A DNA stretch of 23,804 nt from a virus. A program made the position numbers and the translations under genes. This document shows positions 15,553-23,804 of the stretch, one piece after another. The DNA lies in IMG/VR virus record IMGVR_UViG_3300042260_000529, positions 1-23,804 of that record. One strand, 5' to 3'. The notes beneath the pieces are model-generated. The model was given only the letters and a program-made list of their open reading frames with translations, was not told the origin of the DNA and made no database searches. Position 1 is the first letter of the stretch, and each line of letters starts with the position of its first letter.

Positions 15553-17172
15553 TTAGATTGAAGCCAAATCTTTAACATAAATCTTACCATAGAATTCTGG
15601 ACGAACCATCTTCTTAGCGTAACGAGTCATAACACCACGTCTTGGCGTGAAGTTAGTTGGGTCGTACACTAATGGAGTCATAATCAATGGAACGTATGGA
15701 GCGTACACAGCACCAGTCTCTAAGAAACTAGAACCTTTGAAACCTAACAAGATTTCGTTAGAAGTCATGTATGGGTTTTTGTAGACTGTGTAACGAGAAG
15801 CTAATGAACCTACTTGAGATACACCAGCTGCGAATGAAGCTGCATCTTTATCAGCGTTCACTACGAATCCAGGAATTGATTCTAAGATAGTTGCGATATC
15901 TGGAGATACAACGATGAAGTTAGCACCACCACGCAATGTTAATTGATGAATCTTATTAGATACTTTGTTAATCTTAGTACCCAAAGTTTGGAACCAAGTA
16001 TTTTTTTGGTATGCTAATGAAGAAGAACCTGCTGACCAAGTACCAGCTGTAGAGTTGTACTCTTCACCGATAGTTGCAGACCAGTATTCAGTTGTTAAAG
16101 CGTTTGCTTTTAACATATCTAAGATTTCTAAGTCAATCTCTAATGAGATATATTCAGACAACATAGATGTTAATTCAGCTTCAGCATCAATTGAGTGGTA
16201 TGCATTTAAATCTTGTGCCAACTCTGGAGTCCACACTGCTTTTAACTTACGAGTCTTAGCAACGATAGCCTCTGAACGTAATTCCAAATCAACTTCTGGA
16301 ATAGCGATGTCAGTTGCTGGTTCTGTTGGAGTAGCATCTTCGAAATCACCTCTTGTAGTAGAAGTTGGAGCTAATGAATACTTAACTGTCAATGCAGTTT
16401 TAGTAGCTACTGTCGCAACTTTAGCGAAGAATGTTACGTTAGTACCATCATAGCTAGAGTGTGCTGGGTAGAATGTATCTGCTGAATCAAAACCTGATGC
16501 AGAGATATGGAATGAACGTACTGCATCAAAATCTGCTGCAGAGTTTACGTTTGCTTTAGCAATTGTAATTTTTGCTAATGTACCTGCTGCTACTGATGCA
16601 GATAATGCTGCATCATACTTTACTTCTGCCCAAGATGCTGTTGCATATGTTTGGTTAGATGTAGATACTGATACTGATTGGTCGTTGATTGTGTAAGAAT
16701 ATCTTCCTTCACCATAAAGACCGTTTACTGCTGCTTTAGTTCTACCGAAATCACCATCGAAAGAAGTAGTACCATTACCACCAAACAATGATTTACCATT
16801 GAATTTAGTAGCACCTTGTACTGCTGTTCCGTATTTGAAATCTAGATAGAAGATAAGACCTGAAGGTAAGTTCATTGGTTGAACTGAAACGAATTCTTTC
16901 GCTGCAATTTCACCAAAAATACGTCTTACCAATGGTAATGCTACACCAGACCACTCTTCTGAACCTGCAGAAGTACCAGTTGCTGTTGCTTCATCCAATA
17001 ATTGTTTAGCTTGGTTCTCTAATAGAACTGCTACTTGAGATTGCTCTCTTTCTTTTAAACCTTCTAAAAGACCAGTTTGTTCCCACTTGTTCTTCAATTG
17101 ACGTGTTTCAGCCAACATTACTGATTGTGGGTTCTTGCCTTCCATAAGTTTAGATAAATTAAAATTTGCCAT
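15553..17172 (-). CDS. gp23: Major capsid protein, gp23-like
   Basis: 539 aa, ATG at 17172 behind a strong CTAAGGAGAG. Residues 81-116 (VRRIFGEIAAKEFVSVQPMN then LPSGLIFYLDFKYG) match the T4 gp23 'VRR...VQPMxxPtG' region. Residues 305-350 (AKTRKLKAVWTPELAQDL, DAEAELTSMLSEYISLEI) match the gp23 'AKTRaLKAeyTxELAQDL...DAeaEL' core. The C-terminal part (YAPYVPL, DPTNFTPRRGVMTRY) also matches. The first 61 residues are likely a propeptide: LLDE at 58-61 fits the gp21 cleavage consensus and lies near T4's Glu65 site. Residues about 120-285 are an Ala/Ser/Thr-rich insertion domain. It forms the hexamers of the head. The gene is the last of the head unit and has its own terminator. Confidence 0.95.
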   Translation of the reverse strand: MANFNLSKLMEGKNPQSVMLAETRQLKNKWEQTGLLEGLKEREQSQVAVLLENQAKQLLDEATATGTSAGSEEWSGVALPLVRRIFGEIAAKEFVSVQPMNLPSGLIFYLDFKYGTAVQGATKFNGKSLFGGNGTTSFDGDFGRTKAAVNGLYGEGRYSYTINDQSVSVSTSNQTYATASWAEVKYDAALSASVAAGTLAKITIAKANVNSAADFDAVRSFHISASGFDSADTFYPAHSSYDGTNVTFFAKVATVATKTALTVKYSLAPTSTTRGDFEDATPTEPATDIAIPEVDLELRSEAIVAKTRKLKAVWTPELAQDLNAYHSIDAEAELTSMLSEYISLEIDLEILDMLKANALTTEYWSATIGEEYNSTAGTWSAGSSSLAYQKNTWFQTLGTKINKVSNKIHQLTLRGGANFIVVSPDIATILESIPGFVVNADKDAASFAAGVSQVGSLASRYTVYKNPYMTSNEILLGFKGSSFLETGAVYAPYVPLIMTPLVYDPTNFTPRRGVMTRYAKKMVRPEFYGKIYVKDLASI

Positions 17173-18871: not shown

Positions 18872-20611
18872 TTATTTGCTTAAAAGAAATAAAGCTTCTT
18901 CTGCTTCTTGTTGATTTTTAATTTTTGGGTCTTTATACATATCAACTTTGTATCCTCTTAACGCATTTGATAAGAATATCATATACTTAGGATGACCTAA
19001 TTTCTCTTCTAAAGCAGATAATGAATCATAGAACGATTGTTCGTTTCCTTTATTCATTTTTTCTGCAGTTTTATATTCATCTTTGTGTTTATCTATATAA
19101 GATGCTTTTGAATCGGAATATCCATGTGCTGCTTCTTTTACTGATTCGTTTGCTGATTGAAATAATCTCACCGAAAGGATTACATCATTACCGATTTTTA
19201 AATTATTTACTTTATGTCTTTCTAAATCGTAAGATGGATTACCTATTGTGTTTGCTTTTGCAATTACACCATTCTTAATAAAATGTGGTTGTAGTCCAGA
19301 GTAATTATCATCTCTAAACATGAATACATCCGTTGGATTTTCTTTTGAGATTTTAATTATCTTAATTAAACCATTTTTACCCATAAAACATCCACCTTCA
19401 CATTTAGTTCCACCATAGGTTTTACCTTTTTGGAATGTAGATTCGTTTACTGATTCATTATGTGCTTTTCTATATCTAGCTAATGAATTAGCAAGTTCTT
19501 GTTCCATCTTTTTAGCAACTGCAGTAGTTACTAAATTATTAGCATGGAGAATATCAACTACTGTCAATGCATGTGAATATCTTTTATCACCAGTTAAATG
19601 ACCAGAATATATTTTTGCAACTTCTTCACCATCACCTGGTTTGTAAGTTTTGATTATTTCGTTTACCGATTCATTTTGAGTATCTAATTGAAAATATACT
19701 TTATTTTTTACTTTTTGAAAAGCATCAACTGCAGATTTCTCATTACCAACAAAATGCATATTCAATCCAATTTCATTTGAACGAACACCCTTTTTAGCTA
19801 ATGCCAAAATTTGTGATGCAACTGATTTTGAAATTATTTCTTTCGGAGTTCCTACGTGAATAAAATGTTTTAATCCTTCGTTTACTGATTCTTCAACAAA
19901 TCCTTTACTTTTGAAATCTTTAATTCCGTTTTCTAAATCTACTTTGTTTTTAAAAATCTTAATATCCCAAAAATCACTACCATCGTTGTGTTTTTTATGT
20001 CCATCATGTGAACTGATACTATATTTTGCTTTACCAATACCAGGATTTACTTTGAATGCTTTTTTACCTTCATTTACTGAATTACATCCACAATCTTTTG
20101 ATTCTTTTACTGATTCAGATGTTGGAACACAATTAGGAACTTCTTTACCATCCTTCATTTTCATTCCAACTTGTTTATATCCATCCCAACAAGGTGATGC
20201 TTCGTTCATTCCTAAACGTCCTTTCATCTCATCTTCGGTAATTTCACCTATTTTATAATAACGAGATAAGATATGTCCCATATCTTCATATAATCCATGT
20301 AATCTTTGGTCTAAGTTTTTTGCTTCAACTGCTACTTTATCAAATTGACTTCCCAATTTATCAAGTTCACTCATATTTCTCTTCACTGTCTGTGCATCAA
20401 ACCAACCATCTGCTTCGTTTATCGCTAATTGTTTAGCTGCTTCAGTAATTCCACCTAAAACTTCTGCAATTTCAGCAATATCAGATTTTCTATCCATCAT
20501 TTCTTGATACTTGTTGTATGTAGAAACGATTTCTAAGAAATGTTTTTTTACTTCGTTTGAGAATTTTTTAGGTTCTTCACCTTCTTTCACTATGTTAGAT
20601 AAACGTATCAT
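18872..20611 (-). CDS. Modular head protein with repeated ESVNE linkers (putative processed internal head polyprotein)
   Basis: 579 aa with a strong ATAGGAGAG site. N-terminal MIRLSNIVKE looks like a capsid-targeting peptide cut after Glu10. Residues 11-133 are helical. Then come small domains separated by near-identical linkers: ESVKE 166-170, NSVNE 177-181, ESVNE 241-245, ESVNE 314-318, ESVNE 386-390, ESVKE 489-493. The pieces are about 60, 68, 67, 95 and 86 residues. Residues 139-163 (SPCWDGYKQVGMKMKDGK then EVPNCVP) and 195-240 (AKYSISSHDGHKKHNDGSDF) are modules I recall from other phage proteins of unknown role. S-V-N-E fits the T4 gp21 hydrophobic-x-Glu cleavage rule. I infer a polyprotein cut in the prohead into several internal proteins; a multi-domain uncut core protein is the alternative. 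Confidence 0.6.
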   Translation of the reverse strand: MIRLSNIVKEGEEPKKFSNEVKKHFLEIVSTYNKYQEMMDRKSDIAEIAEVLGGITEAAKQLAINEADGWFDAQTVKRNMSELDKLGSQFDKVAVEAKNLDQRLHGLYEDMGHILSRYYKIGEITEDEMKGRLGMNEASPCWDGYKQVGMKMKDGKEVPNCVPTSESVKESKDCGCNSVNEGKKAFKVNPGIGKAKYSISSHDGHKKHNDGSDFWDIKIFKNKVDLENGIKDFKSKGFVEESVNEGLKHFIHVGTPKEIISKSVASQILALAKKGVRSNEIGLNMHFVGNEKSAVDAFQKVKNKVYFQLDTQNESVNEIIKTYKPGDGEEVAKIYSGHLTGDKRYSHALTVVDILHANNLVTTAVAKKMEQELANSLARYRKAHNESVNESTFQKGKTYGGTKCEGGCFMGKNGLIKIIKISKENPTDVFMFRDDNYSGLQPHFIKNGVIAKANTIGNPSYDLERHKVNNLKIGNDVILSVRLFQSANESVKEAAHGYSDSKASYIDKHKDEYKTAEKMNKGNEQSFYDSLSALEEKLGHPKYMIFLSNALRGYKVDMYKDPKIKNQQEAEEALFLLSK

Positions 20612-20625
20612 TTATATCTCTCCTA

Positions 20626-21837
20626 TTATTTACTGAATGCTTTAATGATTCCTTGTGCGAATTTATTTCCTGGTTTACCAACAATTGCAGTTGATATATC
20701 CATTCTATTACTTAATGTATTTGGGCCTTTTAATTTAAGATATGCTAATAACTTTCTATCGTTGATATTATTATCATCAATAAATTTCTTAACAGCTTGA
20801 GTTCTTAAACCAGTTAAACTAGCAATTTCTTCTGCTTCTGATTCATTTACTAATTTTGATAAAGAAATTCTACCTTCGTTTTTCATATAAGGTTTATTAT
20901 CAAATACTGATTGAATCATATCTGCTTCTTTATGGAATCCGTTCATTCTTAATGTGAATGCAATACTATCTGCTGCATCTACACCATCCCAACCAGATGC
21001 TTGTGATACATCAGTACCATAATCATCAATATCACCAGTTCCATTCATATAAATTGAACCATCGGCACTATTTTTTCTAATATCGGCCATTTTCTCTTTA
21101 TATTTAGGGTCTTTGATTGATGGATACTCCGGTCTTTTAGCAAATTCAGGTTTCCCTTCTATCTTAGCAACTAATTCTCTTGCTTCACTATGAAAATTTG
21201 AATCAGTTAATGCAGAAACTGCTGCTTGGAACATTGCTTCTTTATATTTTTCATTACCCAACTTTTGTGGAGTAATACCATATTGTTCTGCCTTCTTCTT
21301 AGCTTCTTTATTTACCGATGGATTACCTGGTCTTTTCTTAGCAGGTTCTGATTTAGGTTCTTCCTTAGATGTTTCCTTATCTTGTGCAAATGGTTTCCAT
21401 AATCCTCTACTATCGATTTCTTTTTTAGTAGATGGTGCAACATTTGCATCCTTTTGATGTGGATACTTCATTGGGTTGTATGGTTCTAATTCTGATGTGT
21501 TTACATTACCATCAGCATCAGTTTTAGTTTCACCTCTCTCATCACCTAATCTTACAATACCAACTGATTTAGTTCTTTTATTGTAAACAACCGAATCAAC
21601 ACCCATAGATGGAGTTGAAGATGATTGTTTAGGTTCTTCCTTAGATGGTTTATCAAAAATATTTACCTTAGAAGTTTTACCAGTAGATTTAGCTGATTTA
21701 TCATCTTCTTTTTCGGAGTGAGTTCCTGCTTTGATTGCAGCATCTCTACTATCCTTTGATTTAAACACTGCGGTTTTACCACTTGCCTTATTAGTAGCGG
21801 TAAACGTTTCTTCATTAAGTAAATTCTTTAATTTCAT
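20626..21837 (-). CDS. Putative internal head protein with capsid-targeting-like N-terminus (403 aa)
   Basis: 403 aa, ATG at 21837 behind AAGGAAA. MKLKNLLNEETFTAT looks like a short targeting peptide ending in L-N-E. Residues 11-45 (FTATNKASGKTAVFKSKDSR, AAIKAGTHS) are a module I recall from several phage structural proteins. Residues 46-190 are polar, Ser/Lys/Pro-rich and probably disordered. Residues 180-260 and 285-330 (SGWDGVDAADSIAFTLRMNG) are folded, helical. SKLVNESEAEE near residues 326-336 is another possible cut site, before a final helical domain (LTGLRTQAVKKFIDDNNIND). No enzymatic motif was seen. Its place between 21 and 22 suggests a head component. Confidence 0.55.
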   Translation of the reverse strand: MKLKNLLNEETFTATNKASGKTAVFKSKDSRDAAIKAGTHSEKEDDKSAKSTGKTSKVNIFDKPSKEEPKQSSSTPSMGVDSVVYNKRTKSVGIVRLGDERGETKTDADGNVNTSELEPYNPMKYPHQKDANVAPSTKKEIDSRGLWKPFAQDKETSKEEPKSEPAKKRPGNPSVNKEAKKKAEQYGITPQKLGNEKYKEAMFQAAVSALTDSNFHSEARELVAKIEGKPEFAKRPEYPSIKDPKYKEKMADIRKNSADGSIYMNGTGDIDDYGTDVSQASGWDGVDAADSIAFTLRMNGFHKEADMIQSVFDNKPYMKNEGRISLSKLVNESEAEEIASLTGLRTQAVKKFIDDNNINDRKLLAYLKLKGPNTLSNRMDISTAIVGKPGNKFAQGIIKAFSK

Positions 21838-21854: not shown

Positions 21855-22295
21855 TTAAAATCCAACTGATACGATTTGACCATCAAACTCTATCCAACGT
21901 AATTTCATAGTGCTTAAATCTCTTAAATCTGATGTATCTAATCTATTTCTTCCTATTGGAACTTTTATTTCAACAATATTACCATGAATACCATCCCAAA
22001 TTGTTTGATGTTTTCCACCAAAGAATTTTTCAAAGGTATTGATTAATTTTTGTTTAGTAGAATCTAATTCATTAAATTTAATTTCAGATGCTTCTTTGAT
22101 TAAATTTTTATTTTCAGTAACAATTGTCTTATGTGTATATAAATCTAACTTACCATCTTCTTTAATCTTTACTTCATAGTTAGTTTTACGAATATCGTTA
22201 TGACCACCTTTATATGGAGTATCACCAACTTCTTTTTTGATGCTACCCATTTCTATCTTGTTATTCTTTAAATAATCTTGTATTGAGAATCCCAT
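21855..22295 (-). CDS. Unknown head-operon protein (146 aa)
   Basis: 146 aa, ATG at 22295 with AAAGGAAAG upstream, 12 bp after the protease stop, so it is in the same operon. The N-terminal half is charged (KIEMGSIKKEVGDTPYKGGH, YEVKIKEDGKLDLYTHK). Residues 68-90 are helical (FNELDSTKQKLINTFEKFFG). The C-terminal 45 residues are beta-type (NIVEIKVPIGRNRLDTSDLR, LRWIEFDGQIVSVGF). I do not recognise the family. Context makes it a head or packaging-related protein; nothing else can be said. Confidence 0.6.
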   Translation of the reverse strand: MGFSIQDYLKNNKIEMGSIKKEVGDTPYKGGHNDIRKTNYEVKIKEDGKLDLYTHKTIVTENKNLIKEASEIKFNELDSTKQKLINTFEKFFGGKHQTIWDGIHGNIVEIKVPIGRNRLDTSDLRDLSTMKLRWIEFDGQIVSVGF

Positions 22296-22307: not shown

Positions 22308-22901
22308 TTATGATAATTCAGTAATGATTTCTCTCATAAGGTCTTGTGCCTTACAATAATCACCACAAACTACCGCTTGTTCTTGTAATTGTTTATTTAC
22401 GGATTCATTCATTGGTGTCATAAATGCACCATGAGTAGATGGATTGGATACAAAATCCCAACCAATTAGTTCAAAATCTTCACCAACTTTCACCTTACCC
22501 TCTCCCATAGGAGTTACTGAACCCATACCACGAGAAGAAATACCTAAAAGGATTCCTGCTCTTAACAATTCTTTTAATATATTACCAGATGGAGTTGGTA
22601 AAATTTCTACTGTCCCGCATAAATCATTACCTTCCCACCAAATTTCTCTTACATTGTGTGAAACGTTTTTTAAGTTGATTACTGATGAATCTGGGTGGTC
22701 TAATTCTCCTAATGCACGTCTTTCCTTAATAAGAGTTTCGTATTTCTTTGCTTCTCTTTGTAAGATTTCTAACGGATATACTCTACCATTCTGATTTTCA
22801 GCAACAGCTCTTTGCAAAACACCTTTAACAAGTGTTCTACCTGATGCATCTTCGTTGATTTTACCTTCAAATAGGTTAGTCTCAATTAATAAATTTTTCA
22901 T
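22308..22901 (-). CDS. gp21: Prohead core protease, gp21-like
   Basis: 197 aa from ATG 22901, chosen because it overlaps the upstream stop (TAATG) and has GGGGAG 6 nt upstream; an in-frame TTG at 22913 would add four residues but lacks this. The family is the T4 prohead serine protease (herpes-assemblin-like fold). GRVYP at 40-43, GELDHP with His69, VREIWWEG at 84-91, and GISSRGMGSV at 120-129 with Ser122 or Ser123 fit the known His/Ser arrangement. GWDFVSNPS at 147-155 is the usual strand after the Ser. The enzyme is known to cut scaffold, capsid protein and internal proteins after Glu and then itself; FEGKINE near the start and NESVNK near the end are possible self-cut or linker sites. Confidence 0.9.
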   Translation of the reverse strand: MKNLLIETNLFEGKINEDASGRTLVKGVLQRAVAENQNGRVYPLEILQREAKKYETLIKERRALGELDHPDSSVINLKNVSHNVREIWWEGNDLCGTVEILPTPSGNILKELLRAGILLGISSRGMGSVTPMGEGKVKVGEDFELIGWDFVSNPSTHGAFMTPMNESVNKQLQEQAVVCGDYCKAQDLMREIITELS

Positions 22902-23092
22902 TATGCTCCCCAAACGTTTCTTTTCTTAAATAAATCAAAAAATATTGCAGAAACTTCTTTACGAATAATATCTCTAATGATTTTTTCATCTTCACTAGTG
23001 ATTTCTTCATTAACAAACCCCCATTTTACTTTAAGGATTTCCTCATCAATTATTTCTAACAATCTTTTCTTAGTCATTCGGTTAATTACCAC
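22901..23092 (-). CDS. Small prohead-operon protein (63 aa)
   Basis: Starts with GTG at 23092, or with ATG at 23077 (MTKKRLLEIIDEEI); neither has a clear Shine-Dalgarno and the ATG gives a 58-aa protein. The N-terminal K(K/R)RLLEIIDEE is similar to that of the next gene upstream and to capsid-targeting peptides. The rest is helical and charged (DEKIIRDIIRKEVSAIFFDL). Its location directly before the protease corresponds to T4 gp68 or gp67, small prohead core proteins, but sequence similarity was not established. The stop overlaps the protease start. Confidence 0.5.
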   Translation of the reverse strand: MVINRMTKKRLLEIIDEEILKVKWGFVNEEITSEDEKIIRDIIRKEVSAIFFDLFKKRNVWGA

Positions 23093-23298
23093 TTTTTCTT
23101 TTTAGCTTCGTTTTTCTCACCTTTACCATTCCATGCTGCATCAATTTTATCAAAAAAAGCTTTCTTTTCTTCTTCTGACATTTCTGGAATAGATTTTCCA
23201 GCCTTATCTAATGCTGCTTGAAAGAATTGTTGGTATTCAGTTTCTTCTACCATCACTTCTTTAACGATTTCTTTTAGTCTTGCACGTGATATTTTCAT
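23086..23298 (-). CDS. Small charged prohead-operon protein (70 aa)
   Basis: 70 aa; the ATG overlaps the upstream stop (TAATG) with GGAGATAG nearby. MKISRARLKEIVKEVMVEE is an N-terminal motif seen in many small phage proteins and fits a peptide cut after V-K-E or V-E-E. Residues 24-55 are helical (FFQAALDKAGKSIPEMSEEE). The tail is Lys-rich (KNEAKKKKW). It lies in the region corresponding to T4 gp67/gp68 (prohead core), which supports but does not prove that role. Confidence 0.55.
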   Translation of the reverse strand: MKISRARLKEIVKEVMVEETEYQQFFQAALDKAGKSIPEMSEEEKKAFFDKIDAAWNGKGEKNEAKKKKW

Positions 23299-23804
23299 TA
23301 TTTTTCTATCTCCTGTATTGTTTTTGCAATGTTAATTAATCTCTCTTTTATTTTATAAATATGACCGTGAGTTCTTTTCCAAAAAACATCGGATGATAGT
23401 TCGTTCATCGTCTTAATTTGATTATACCAACGGAAAAACTTCTCTACTTCGCTCAATTGGTGTTTTAATTCTTTCAATCCTACTGCTAACTTCTTATTAG
23501 CGTGCATTGATTCATCATTTTTCAATTCTAACCAACGATTTACTGGTCTTTTAACTTTACCTTCGGATACTGATTCGTATTTACCTCTTAGTTTTCCTAA
23601 TGATTTAAGAGCATCCTTTTCGTTCTTCTTAAAGTAATCTTCAACTTCTCTTTTTGTATCAAATGATAATTGGCCTTTACCTTTCTTCACATCATCTACC
23701 CAAAATGAATCAGAATCTCTATCAAATTCGTAGTATCCTATGAGTTTTCCGTTTGATAATACTTTACCATCTTTAACTTCCCAACTTTCGTTTACCGATT
23801 CTTT
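23298..23804 (-). CDS. Second ESVNE-containing modular head protein, C-terminal part (runs off the window)
   Basis: A GTG at 23690 can be taken as a start, but the frame is open to the window edge and codes KESVNESWEVKDGKVLSNGK and GYYEFDRDSDSFWVDD before it. The gene therefore begins outside and 168 codons plus a stop are visible. ESVNE lies at the very edge and ESVSE about 70 residues later, dividing the protein into a beta-type piece and a helical piece (WLELKNDESMHANKKLAVGL, then a coiled coil). The architecture matches the 579-aa protein. It is probably a second processed internal or core protein; the portal gene may lie further upstream but is not in view. Confidence 0.6.
   Translation of the reverse strand, partial: KESVNESWEVKDGKVLSNGKLIGYYEFDRDSDSFWVDDVKKGKGQLSFDTKREVEDYFKKNEKDALKSLGKLRGKYESVSEGKVKRPVNRWLELKNDESMHANKKLAVGLKELKHQLSEVEKFFRWYNQIKTMNELSSDVFWKRTHGHIYKIKERLINIAKTIQEIEK

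Follow-up and report, generated by a model that had tools for sequence, protein, structure and literature searches.

A probable cassette polyprotein in the head operon of a T4-type phage

Gene A, an open reading frame of 579 residues in the head operon of a T4-type phage, probably encodes a prohead-core cassette polyprotein, in which a carrier would deliver several protease-resistant internal proteins for gp21 to cut apart. Cleavage of a polyprotein into several working products is textbook knowledge for RNA viruses and retroviruses, not for tailed-phage heads, and we found no paper describing a prohead-protease cassette array in the literature searched. A sequence-only reading had proposed that this one gene supplies several internal head proteins, and all the sequence tests run agree with it. 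If true, this would be a simple route to load many proteins with one targeting signal. Likely injected proteins could then be read from sequence, as the segments between hydrophobic-x-Glu (hxE) junctions, and small families that have not been studied, more than 100 in number, would become candidates for anti-defence factors; the closest phages described have Bacteroidetes as their predicted hosts. The arrangement also points to a ready design for the packing of several proteins into a phage head.

Gene A and the head operon

The window, that is, the whole stretch of DNA analysed (23.8 kb), comes from a virus record and represents part of a T4-type phage. On the minus strand lies a head operon in which gene B is followed by two small genes; then come the gp21-type protease, genes E and C, and gene A, and behind these a gene for ribosomal protein S21, a probable scaffold gene and gp23. 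The protease (22913-22308) matches Peptidase_S77 (Pfam, E 9.3e-28) and PHROG 207, head maturation protease (E 1.5e-50), and the S77 match, together with a location upstream of gp23 within the head operon, identifies it as a T4-type prohead protease. Both position and profile bear out the statement that the protease gene lies three genes upstream of gene A, which is placed between the protease and gp23. The features are as follows, gene A being given from its N-terminus onwards.

23298..23804, minus strand: gene B, truncated at its 5' end by the edge of the window; ESVNE, then a cassette, ESVSE and the framework C-domain RPVNRWLELKNDESMHANKK...
22308..22913, minus strand: prohead protease, T4 gp21 type (Peptidase_S77, profile matches), presumed cutting enzyme
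21858..22091, minus strand: gene E C-terminal cassette, residues 69-146, after NLIKE
20629..20841, minus strand: gene C C-terminal cassette, residues 333-403, after KLVNE
18872..20611, minus strand: gene A, probable cassette polyprotein (ORF, ATG start, 579 aa, six linkers)
20582..20611, minus strand: N-terminal targeting-type peptide MIRLSNIVKE, a recurrent MIKLKxLLNE-type N-terminus; putative capsid targeting sequence, with a predicted cut after E10
20237..20581, minus strand: framework N-domain (residues 11-125), an acidic helical domain with many [VIL]xE
20117..20236, minus strand: CWxGY...GMKxKxGKxVPNCVP segment, residues 126-165
20102..20116, minus strand: linker 1, ESVKE
20069..20083, minus strand: linker 2, NSVNE, after the hexapeptide SKDCGC
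19892..20068, minus strand: cassette s2, residues 182-240
19877..19891, minus strand: linker 3, ESVNE
19673..19876, minus strand: cassette s3, residues 246-313
19658..19672, minus strand: linker 4, ESVNE
19457..19657, minus strand: cassette s4, residues 319-385
19442..19456, minus strand: linker 5, ESVNE
19148..19441, minus strand: cassette s5, residues 391-488, the most widespread family
19133..19147, minus strand: linker 6, ESVKE
18875..19132, minus strand: C-terminal cassette s6, residues 494-579
15553..17172, minus strand: major capsid protein gp23 (Pfam Gp23, E 3e-78)

ORF translation and a motif scan agree on six [EN]SV[NK]E linkers, exactly where they had been claimed (ESVKE at residues 166-170, NSVNE at 177-181, ESVNE at 241-245, 314-318 and 386-390, ESVKE at 489-493), while the shuffled protein is expected to hold a mean of 0.0076 (maximum 2 in 20,000 shuffles). 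At the DNA level, the linker motif occurs six times in the 23.8-kb window, five times in gene A and once in the truncated gene B, and the reversed control pattern matches nowhere in it.

The other genes of the window call for a few remarks. The S21 gene (18813-18511, minus strand) comes directly after gene A and shares the strand of the head genes; in the described bS21 phages it lies on the opposite strand (PMC9723584). Two large repetitive proteins of tail-fibre type, with VSGSSQVT repeats, are encoded at 6090-2239 and 1530-388 (minus strand), and both end in SSD(I/R)RFK(E/D)N...GVIAQEIE, which by eye resembles an S74 intramolecular chaperone. The ORF at 14638-13895 (minus strand) begins with MLKKRLFTFGCSFTKYKWPSW, by eye like an SGNH-hydrolase-type start.

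Exchange of cassettes at the linkers

Sequence comparison indicates that the linker-to-linker segment is a movable cassette. In related viral contigs, 91 ORFs with at least two linkers yielded 158 such segments in 52 clusters, some of which are chained by composite segments, so that the true family count differs. Many of the loci are fragments of related phages and the counts do not represent independent events; the main test was accordingly cluster-weighted. The highest number of linkers per ORF among the relatives is six.

The linker array is also found outside gene A, in gene B (ESVNE and ESVSE), and the system spans several genes. The 80 distinct ORFs homologous to gene B measure 149 to 608 aa and contain 0 to 5 linkers, length and linker number being correlated (r = 0.84). 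Their N- and C-terminal ends are constant; the shortest forms (149 aa) have nothing between these ends, and the longest (608 aa) have up to five linkers. The same cassettes occur in differing orders, in gene A and gene B alike. For instance, the linker-s5-linker stretch of 328 bp (window 19457-19130) is 83.5% identical to part of gene B in L014, a locus whose gene B cassettes had no match among the cultured phages of the collection searched, and gene B of L011 carries s5 and s3 in reversed order. Two loci whose DNA is 85 to 94% identical around gene A give alignments to the window that break and resume at linkers: s2 and s4 are absent from the gene A locus of L007, and s2 to s4 from that of L008. 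The expectation that linkers would be kept while domains change is thus confirmed by the homologue alignments, which show cassette shuffling with breakpoints at the linkers.

The individual segments differ in their distribution. Cassette s5 has 30 distinct relatives, spread over gene A, gene B and further loci, although one scan of genome contigs found none; s2 has 12, with varying junctions (ESVNE, ESVTE, GVDE, VKE, IVTE). Relatives of s3 occur in L007 (gene A) and in L011, L012 and L017 (gene B), s6 is the last segment of gene A in many relatives, and s4 has no relative among the segments of related viral loci. The gene A N-domain forms a single-domain gene at the equivalent place in two more distant relatives, Microcystis phage Mel-JY01 and the uncultured phage LR756508; since it stands there alone, the cassettes look like additions. 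The description of gene A as small domains between linkers fits the cassettes behind the linkers and has to be amended for the first 165 residues, which are mostly a conserved acidic helical framework.

Beyond these loci, three contigs of 276-289 kb contain the linker motif 5, 8 and 11 times, in the head operon and a few other places, and the reversed motif 0 times. Cassette-type genes with linkers are present in four of five further stretches from these contigs, and in L034, L061 and L097 cassette genes have a targeting-type peptide at their start. We know of no isolate of this phage group. The nearest described phages are the bS21-encoding jumbo phages with predicted Bacteroidetes hosts; that report gives neighbouring genes as hypothetical and makes no use of the word "polyprotein" (PMC9723584).

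Three observations concern further genes. A protein of more than 1,300 residues is encoded near gene B (L137:2-3970, L088:1-3969), and cassette exchange is seen in this third gene too: in L137 two linkers flank a HEITHQ zincin-like segment, and a different cassette is present in L088. The small gene after gene B (L008:5000-5503, L014:4958-5467) encodes KKLD(I/V)DKDGDIGSDDL, a stretch similar to the loop of an EF-hand or a dockerin. Many cyanophage proteins also contain the CWxGY...GMKxKxGKxVPNCVP segment, one of them Syn33_105 (NC_015285.1 98044-99408), near the small terminase gene.

Alternatively, the 15 bp of the linker could serve mainly as recombination homology (GAATCAGTAAACGAA) that spreads the cassettes, the protein motif being a by-product. 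Indeed, the identical 15-mer GAATCAGTAAACGAA is found in 92 of 188 distinct contexts, the codons AAC and TCA are overused in linkers relative to the codon usage of these phages, and base conservation falls to background beyond the 15 bp and one G. However, linkers are encoded by 47 different DNA 15-mers, and the exact linker word is in frame in 210 of 210 cases in the loci, never out of frame. Two scans that looked for paired linker DNA words, made with no protein query, gave 118 further loci in which 98 of 99 distinct double-linker stretches keep the frame and are open. Moreover, hxE recurs at junctions of other sequence. Given that the word stays in frame and has many synonymous forms, we reject a pure DNA-repeat explanation, and consider it highly improbable that the protein motif arose as a mere by-product. 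The 15-mer bias is explained in part by shared ancestry; the linker may also have a role as recombination homology, which could operate alongside cleavage, not instead of it.

Junctions as candidate protease sites, and the cargo between them

T4 gp21 cleaves after L/I-X-E (PMC9026906), and T4 internal proteins enter the head by means of a short N-terminal peptide that gp21 removes, ten residues being sufficient for IPIII (PMC9026906, PMC7411985). Gene A itself starts with such a short peptide ending in hydrophobic-x-Glu, MIRLSNIVKE. Among 774 ORFs of related loci, 116 have an N-terminus resembling a capsid targeting sequence, and hxE occurs in residues 4-14 of 276, against 111 to 190 in later windows. 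By sequence, the linker appears equivalent to this N-terminal targeting peptide. Cassettes found at protein starts follow MIKLKDLLNE, MIKLKDIINE, MKSLKE, MIRLKE or MIKLKNILNE, and relatives of s5 are among those directly behind MIKLKDIINE, MKSLKE and MIRLKE. The C-terminal cassette of gene E stands behind MIKL(S/T)xLNE in L054, L063 and L046; relatives of that of gene C are preceded either by ESVNE or by MI(K/S)LKxIL(K/N)E; and the CWxGY segment recurs behind an N-terminal peptide in L138, L141 and L145 (MIKLQTLLNE/DSPCWNGYKQ and similar, the slash marking the junction).

One cassette may also have many junctions, ESVNE in one phage and IVTE, GVDE, KVKE or INKE in another. At 105 non-canonical cassette starts, Glu occupies position -1 in only 58 (55%) and a full hxE precedes 43 (41%), compared with 2 to 22% and 0 to 18%, respectively, at flanking positions; the remaining starts are explained in part by automatic calls that are off by one or two residues. 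Small residues predominate at P1' of 188 distinct canonical linkers: Ala, Gly and Ser make up 65%, compared with a background of 19%, and Ala is enriched 6.5-fold. The putative maturation site of gp23, LLDE/ATATG, placed by its position relative to T4 gp23, is likewise hydrophobic-x-Glu followed by Ala. Most linkers have Val at P3, unlike the Leu/Ile preferred in T4, and this counts against the gp21 reading. Nevertheless, the proposal that the linkers fit the hydrophobic-x-Glu rule of prohead proteases is upheld by the targeting-peptide equivalence, the small P1' residue and the loss of [VIL]xE inside cassettes described below.

Could the linkers be ordinary flexible hinges that spread with recombining domains, in a multidomain head protein that stays uncut? 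They do lie in low-confidence, probably flexible stretches of the AlphaFold model. This model is poor (mean pLDDT 53.7 for gene A, with several alignment schemes tried), partly because MAFFT misplaces fragments of shuffled domains; all six linkers are wholly or almost wholly below pLDDT 50, as are 44% of gene A residues, which weakly supports their being exposed. A continuous fold with buried linkers was accordingly not predicted, by a model that is itself weak. Hinges, however, need neither a Glu at the junction nor a small residue after it, nor equivalence with N-terminal targeting peptides, nor a selective loss of [VIL]xE inside cassettes, and we regard this explanation as unlikely.

That loss is marked. 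Within cassettes, [VIL]xE occurs at 0.48 times the expectation from shuffled sequence, which ignores secondary structure (z -4.5), whereas the control motifs [VIL]E, [VIL]xxE, Ex[VIL], [VIL]xD, [VIL]xQ and [FYW]xE are near expectation. These neighbouring-register controls and the T4 comparison argue against secondary structure as the cause. The motif is altogether absent from 37 of the 52 cluster representatives. From residue 182 onwards, gene A contains six [VIL]xE, namely four linkers, one abutting a linker (241) and one other (536). Cassettes are also small and basic (median 8.2 kDa; pI above 8.5 in 49 of 50). The 118 further loci served as replication: in 82 cassette clusters unlike the first set, of which 74 have a pI above 8.5, [VIL]xE stands at 0.67 times expectation (z -3.3), a weaker depletion in the same direction, with internal hxE present in some clusters, and the controls are at or above expectation except [FYW]xE (0.81, z -1.1).

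The framework domains behave in the opposite way: the N-domain of gene A (5.0 [VIL]xE per 100 aa, 20 homologues) and the N- and C-domains of gene B have 5.0 to 5.4 per 100 aa, 2.3 to 2.7 times expectation, and the cassettes about tenfold less (0.46). T4 offers the same pair of patterns. After the targeting peptide, IPI, IPII and IPIII contain 0 [VIL]xE where 3.8 are expected, and gp22, gp67 and gp68, which gp21 shreds, together have 5.9 per 100 aa (1.86-fold), against 1.7 in the other T4 proteins checked. Residues 11-125 of gene A resemble a core protein, which would be shredded, rather than a passenger.

It might then be asked whether the whole chain is a sacrificial core scaffold, with linkers aiding complete destruction and nothing staying in the head. 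The fate of the three T4 core proteins, whose site density the frameworks resemble, is consistent with this, as is the location of gene B between portal and gp21, like gp67/gp68. But the scarcity of sites in cassettes, their basic character, shared with the internal proteins, and their high diversity, which mere filler does not require, make this very unlikely.

Searches for function gave no assignment. Pfam found nothing significant in gene A segments and no convincing function in 27 segments, cassettes and related pieces; sub-threshold hits (for example MltA insert, E 6e-4, below its cutoff) were not trusted. The s5 cassette modelled alone reached a mean pLDDT of 68, and Foldseek against PDB and viral models returned nothing at E below 0.001, nor did a profile search of PDB return anything.

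Proposed mechanism and comparison with known systems

We favor the following scheme for the cassette polyprotein. The N-terminal targeting peptide and the helical, core-protein-like carrier domain would bring the gene A product into the assembling prohead, where the gp21-type protease would cut after the Glu of each hydrophobic-x-Glu linker. Cutting would shred the carrier or framework and free several small, basic, protease-resistant proteins, which would stay in the head with the DNA, as do T4 IPI-III. The cassettes would probably enter the next host, and may counter host defences or help takeover. The parts of this scheme differ in strength. Cassette anatomy, exchange at linkers, the equivalence between a linker and an N-terminal targeting peptide, the small basic nature of cassettes and their avoidance of the gp21 motif are read directly from the sequences; from these we infer cleavage and retention in the virion, and injection and an anti-defence function are the least supported. 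T-even internal proteins form a diverse, highly variable anti-restriction set in which only the targeting signal is conserved (PMC3012670), and inhibition of type IV restriction enzymes is described for Ip2 and Ip3 (PMC12373910); by this analogy an anti-defence role is a reasonable guess. A broader view, which we consider less likely than not, is that of an integron-like repertoire at the protein level: more than 100 small families of injected anti-host proteins would be exchanged as cassettes from gene to gene and from phage to phage, their shared 15-bp end being both recombination homology and prohead-protease cut site, and one head assembly would arm the virion with changing effectors.

Polyvalent proteins of phages and conjugative elements also carry many shuffled domains per chain and are proposed to be packaged and processed, but they contain recognised conflict domains and their cutting is attributed to embedded zincin peptidases (PMC5512222). 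Pfam, run on gene A, on its segments and on a number of other cassettes, gave no significant match to a recognised conflict or nucleic-acid domain, and it found no zincin peptidase in gene A, whose sites match a separate prohead protease; one relative, L137, does carry the zincin-like HEITHQ segment as a cassette. Because known domains are lacking, we reject membership in this class.

In the giant phages SPN3US and phiKZ, a gp21-type protease cuts after Glu in a short motif, as presumed here, and ejection proteins have long propeptides cut at several places; in the part of that report consulted, each reported substrate gives one mature product and no array of cargo domains is described (PMC10052503).

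The closest parallels come from T4. Its core proteins gp67, gp68 and gp22 have the same [VIL]xE excess as the framework domains, and gene B occupies the place that the gp67 and gp68 genes hold between portal and gp21; the likeness is one of site density and position, and the carriers described here, unlike those core proteins, hold inserted cassettes that avoid gp21 sites. Like IPI, IPII, IPIII and Alt, which have capsid targeting sequences, the cassettes are small basic proteins, and as in IPI-III, where [VIL]xE is confined to the end of the targeting peptide, they are poor in internal gp21 sites. In T4, however, each internal protein has one gene, one N-terminal peptide and one mature product. 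Gene A has five cassettes behind linkers, in line with the suggestion that a linked set would be a different design from separate genes, and since it would yield several products, we class it as a variant of the T4 internal-protein system rather than a strict member. In this variant, several passengers would share one targeting peptide, with internal hxE linkers between them, and single and arrayed forms coexist.
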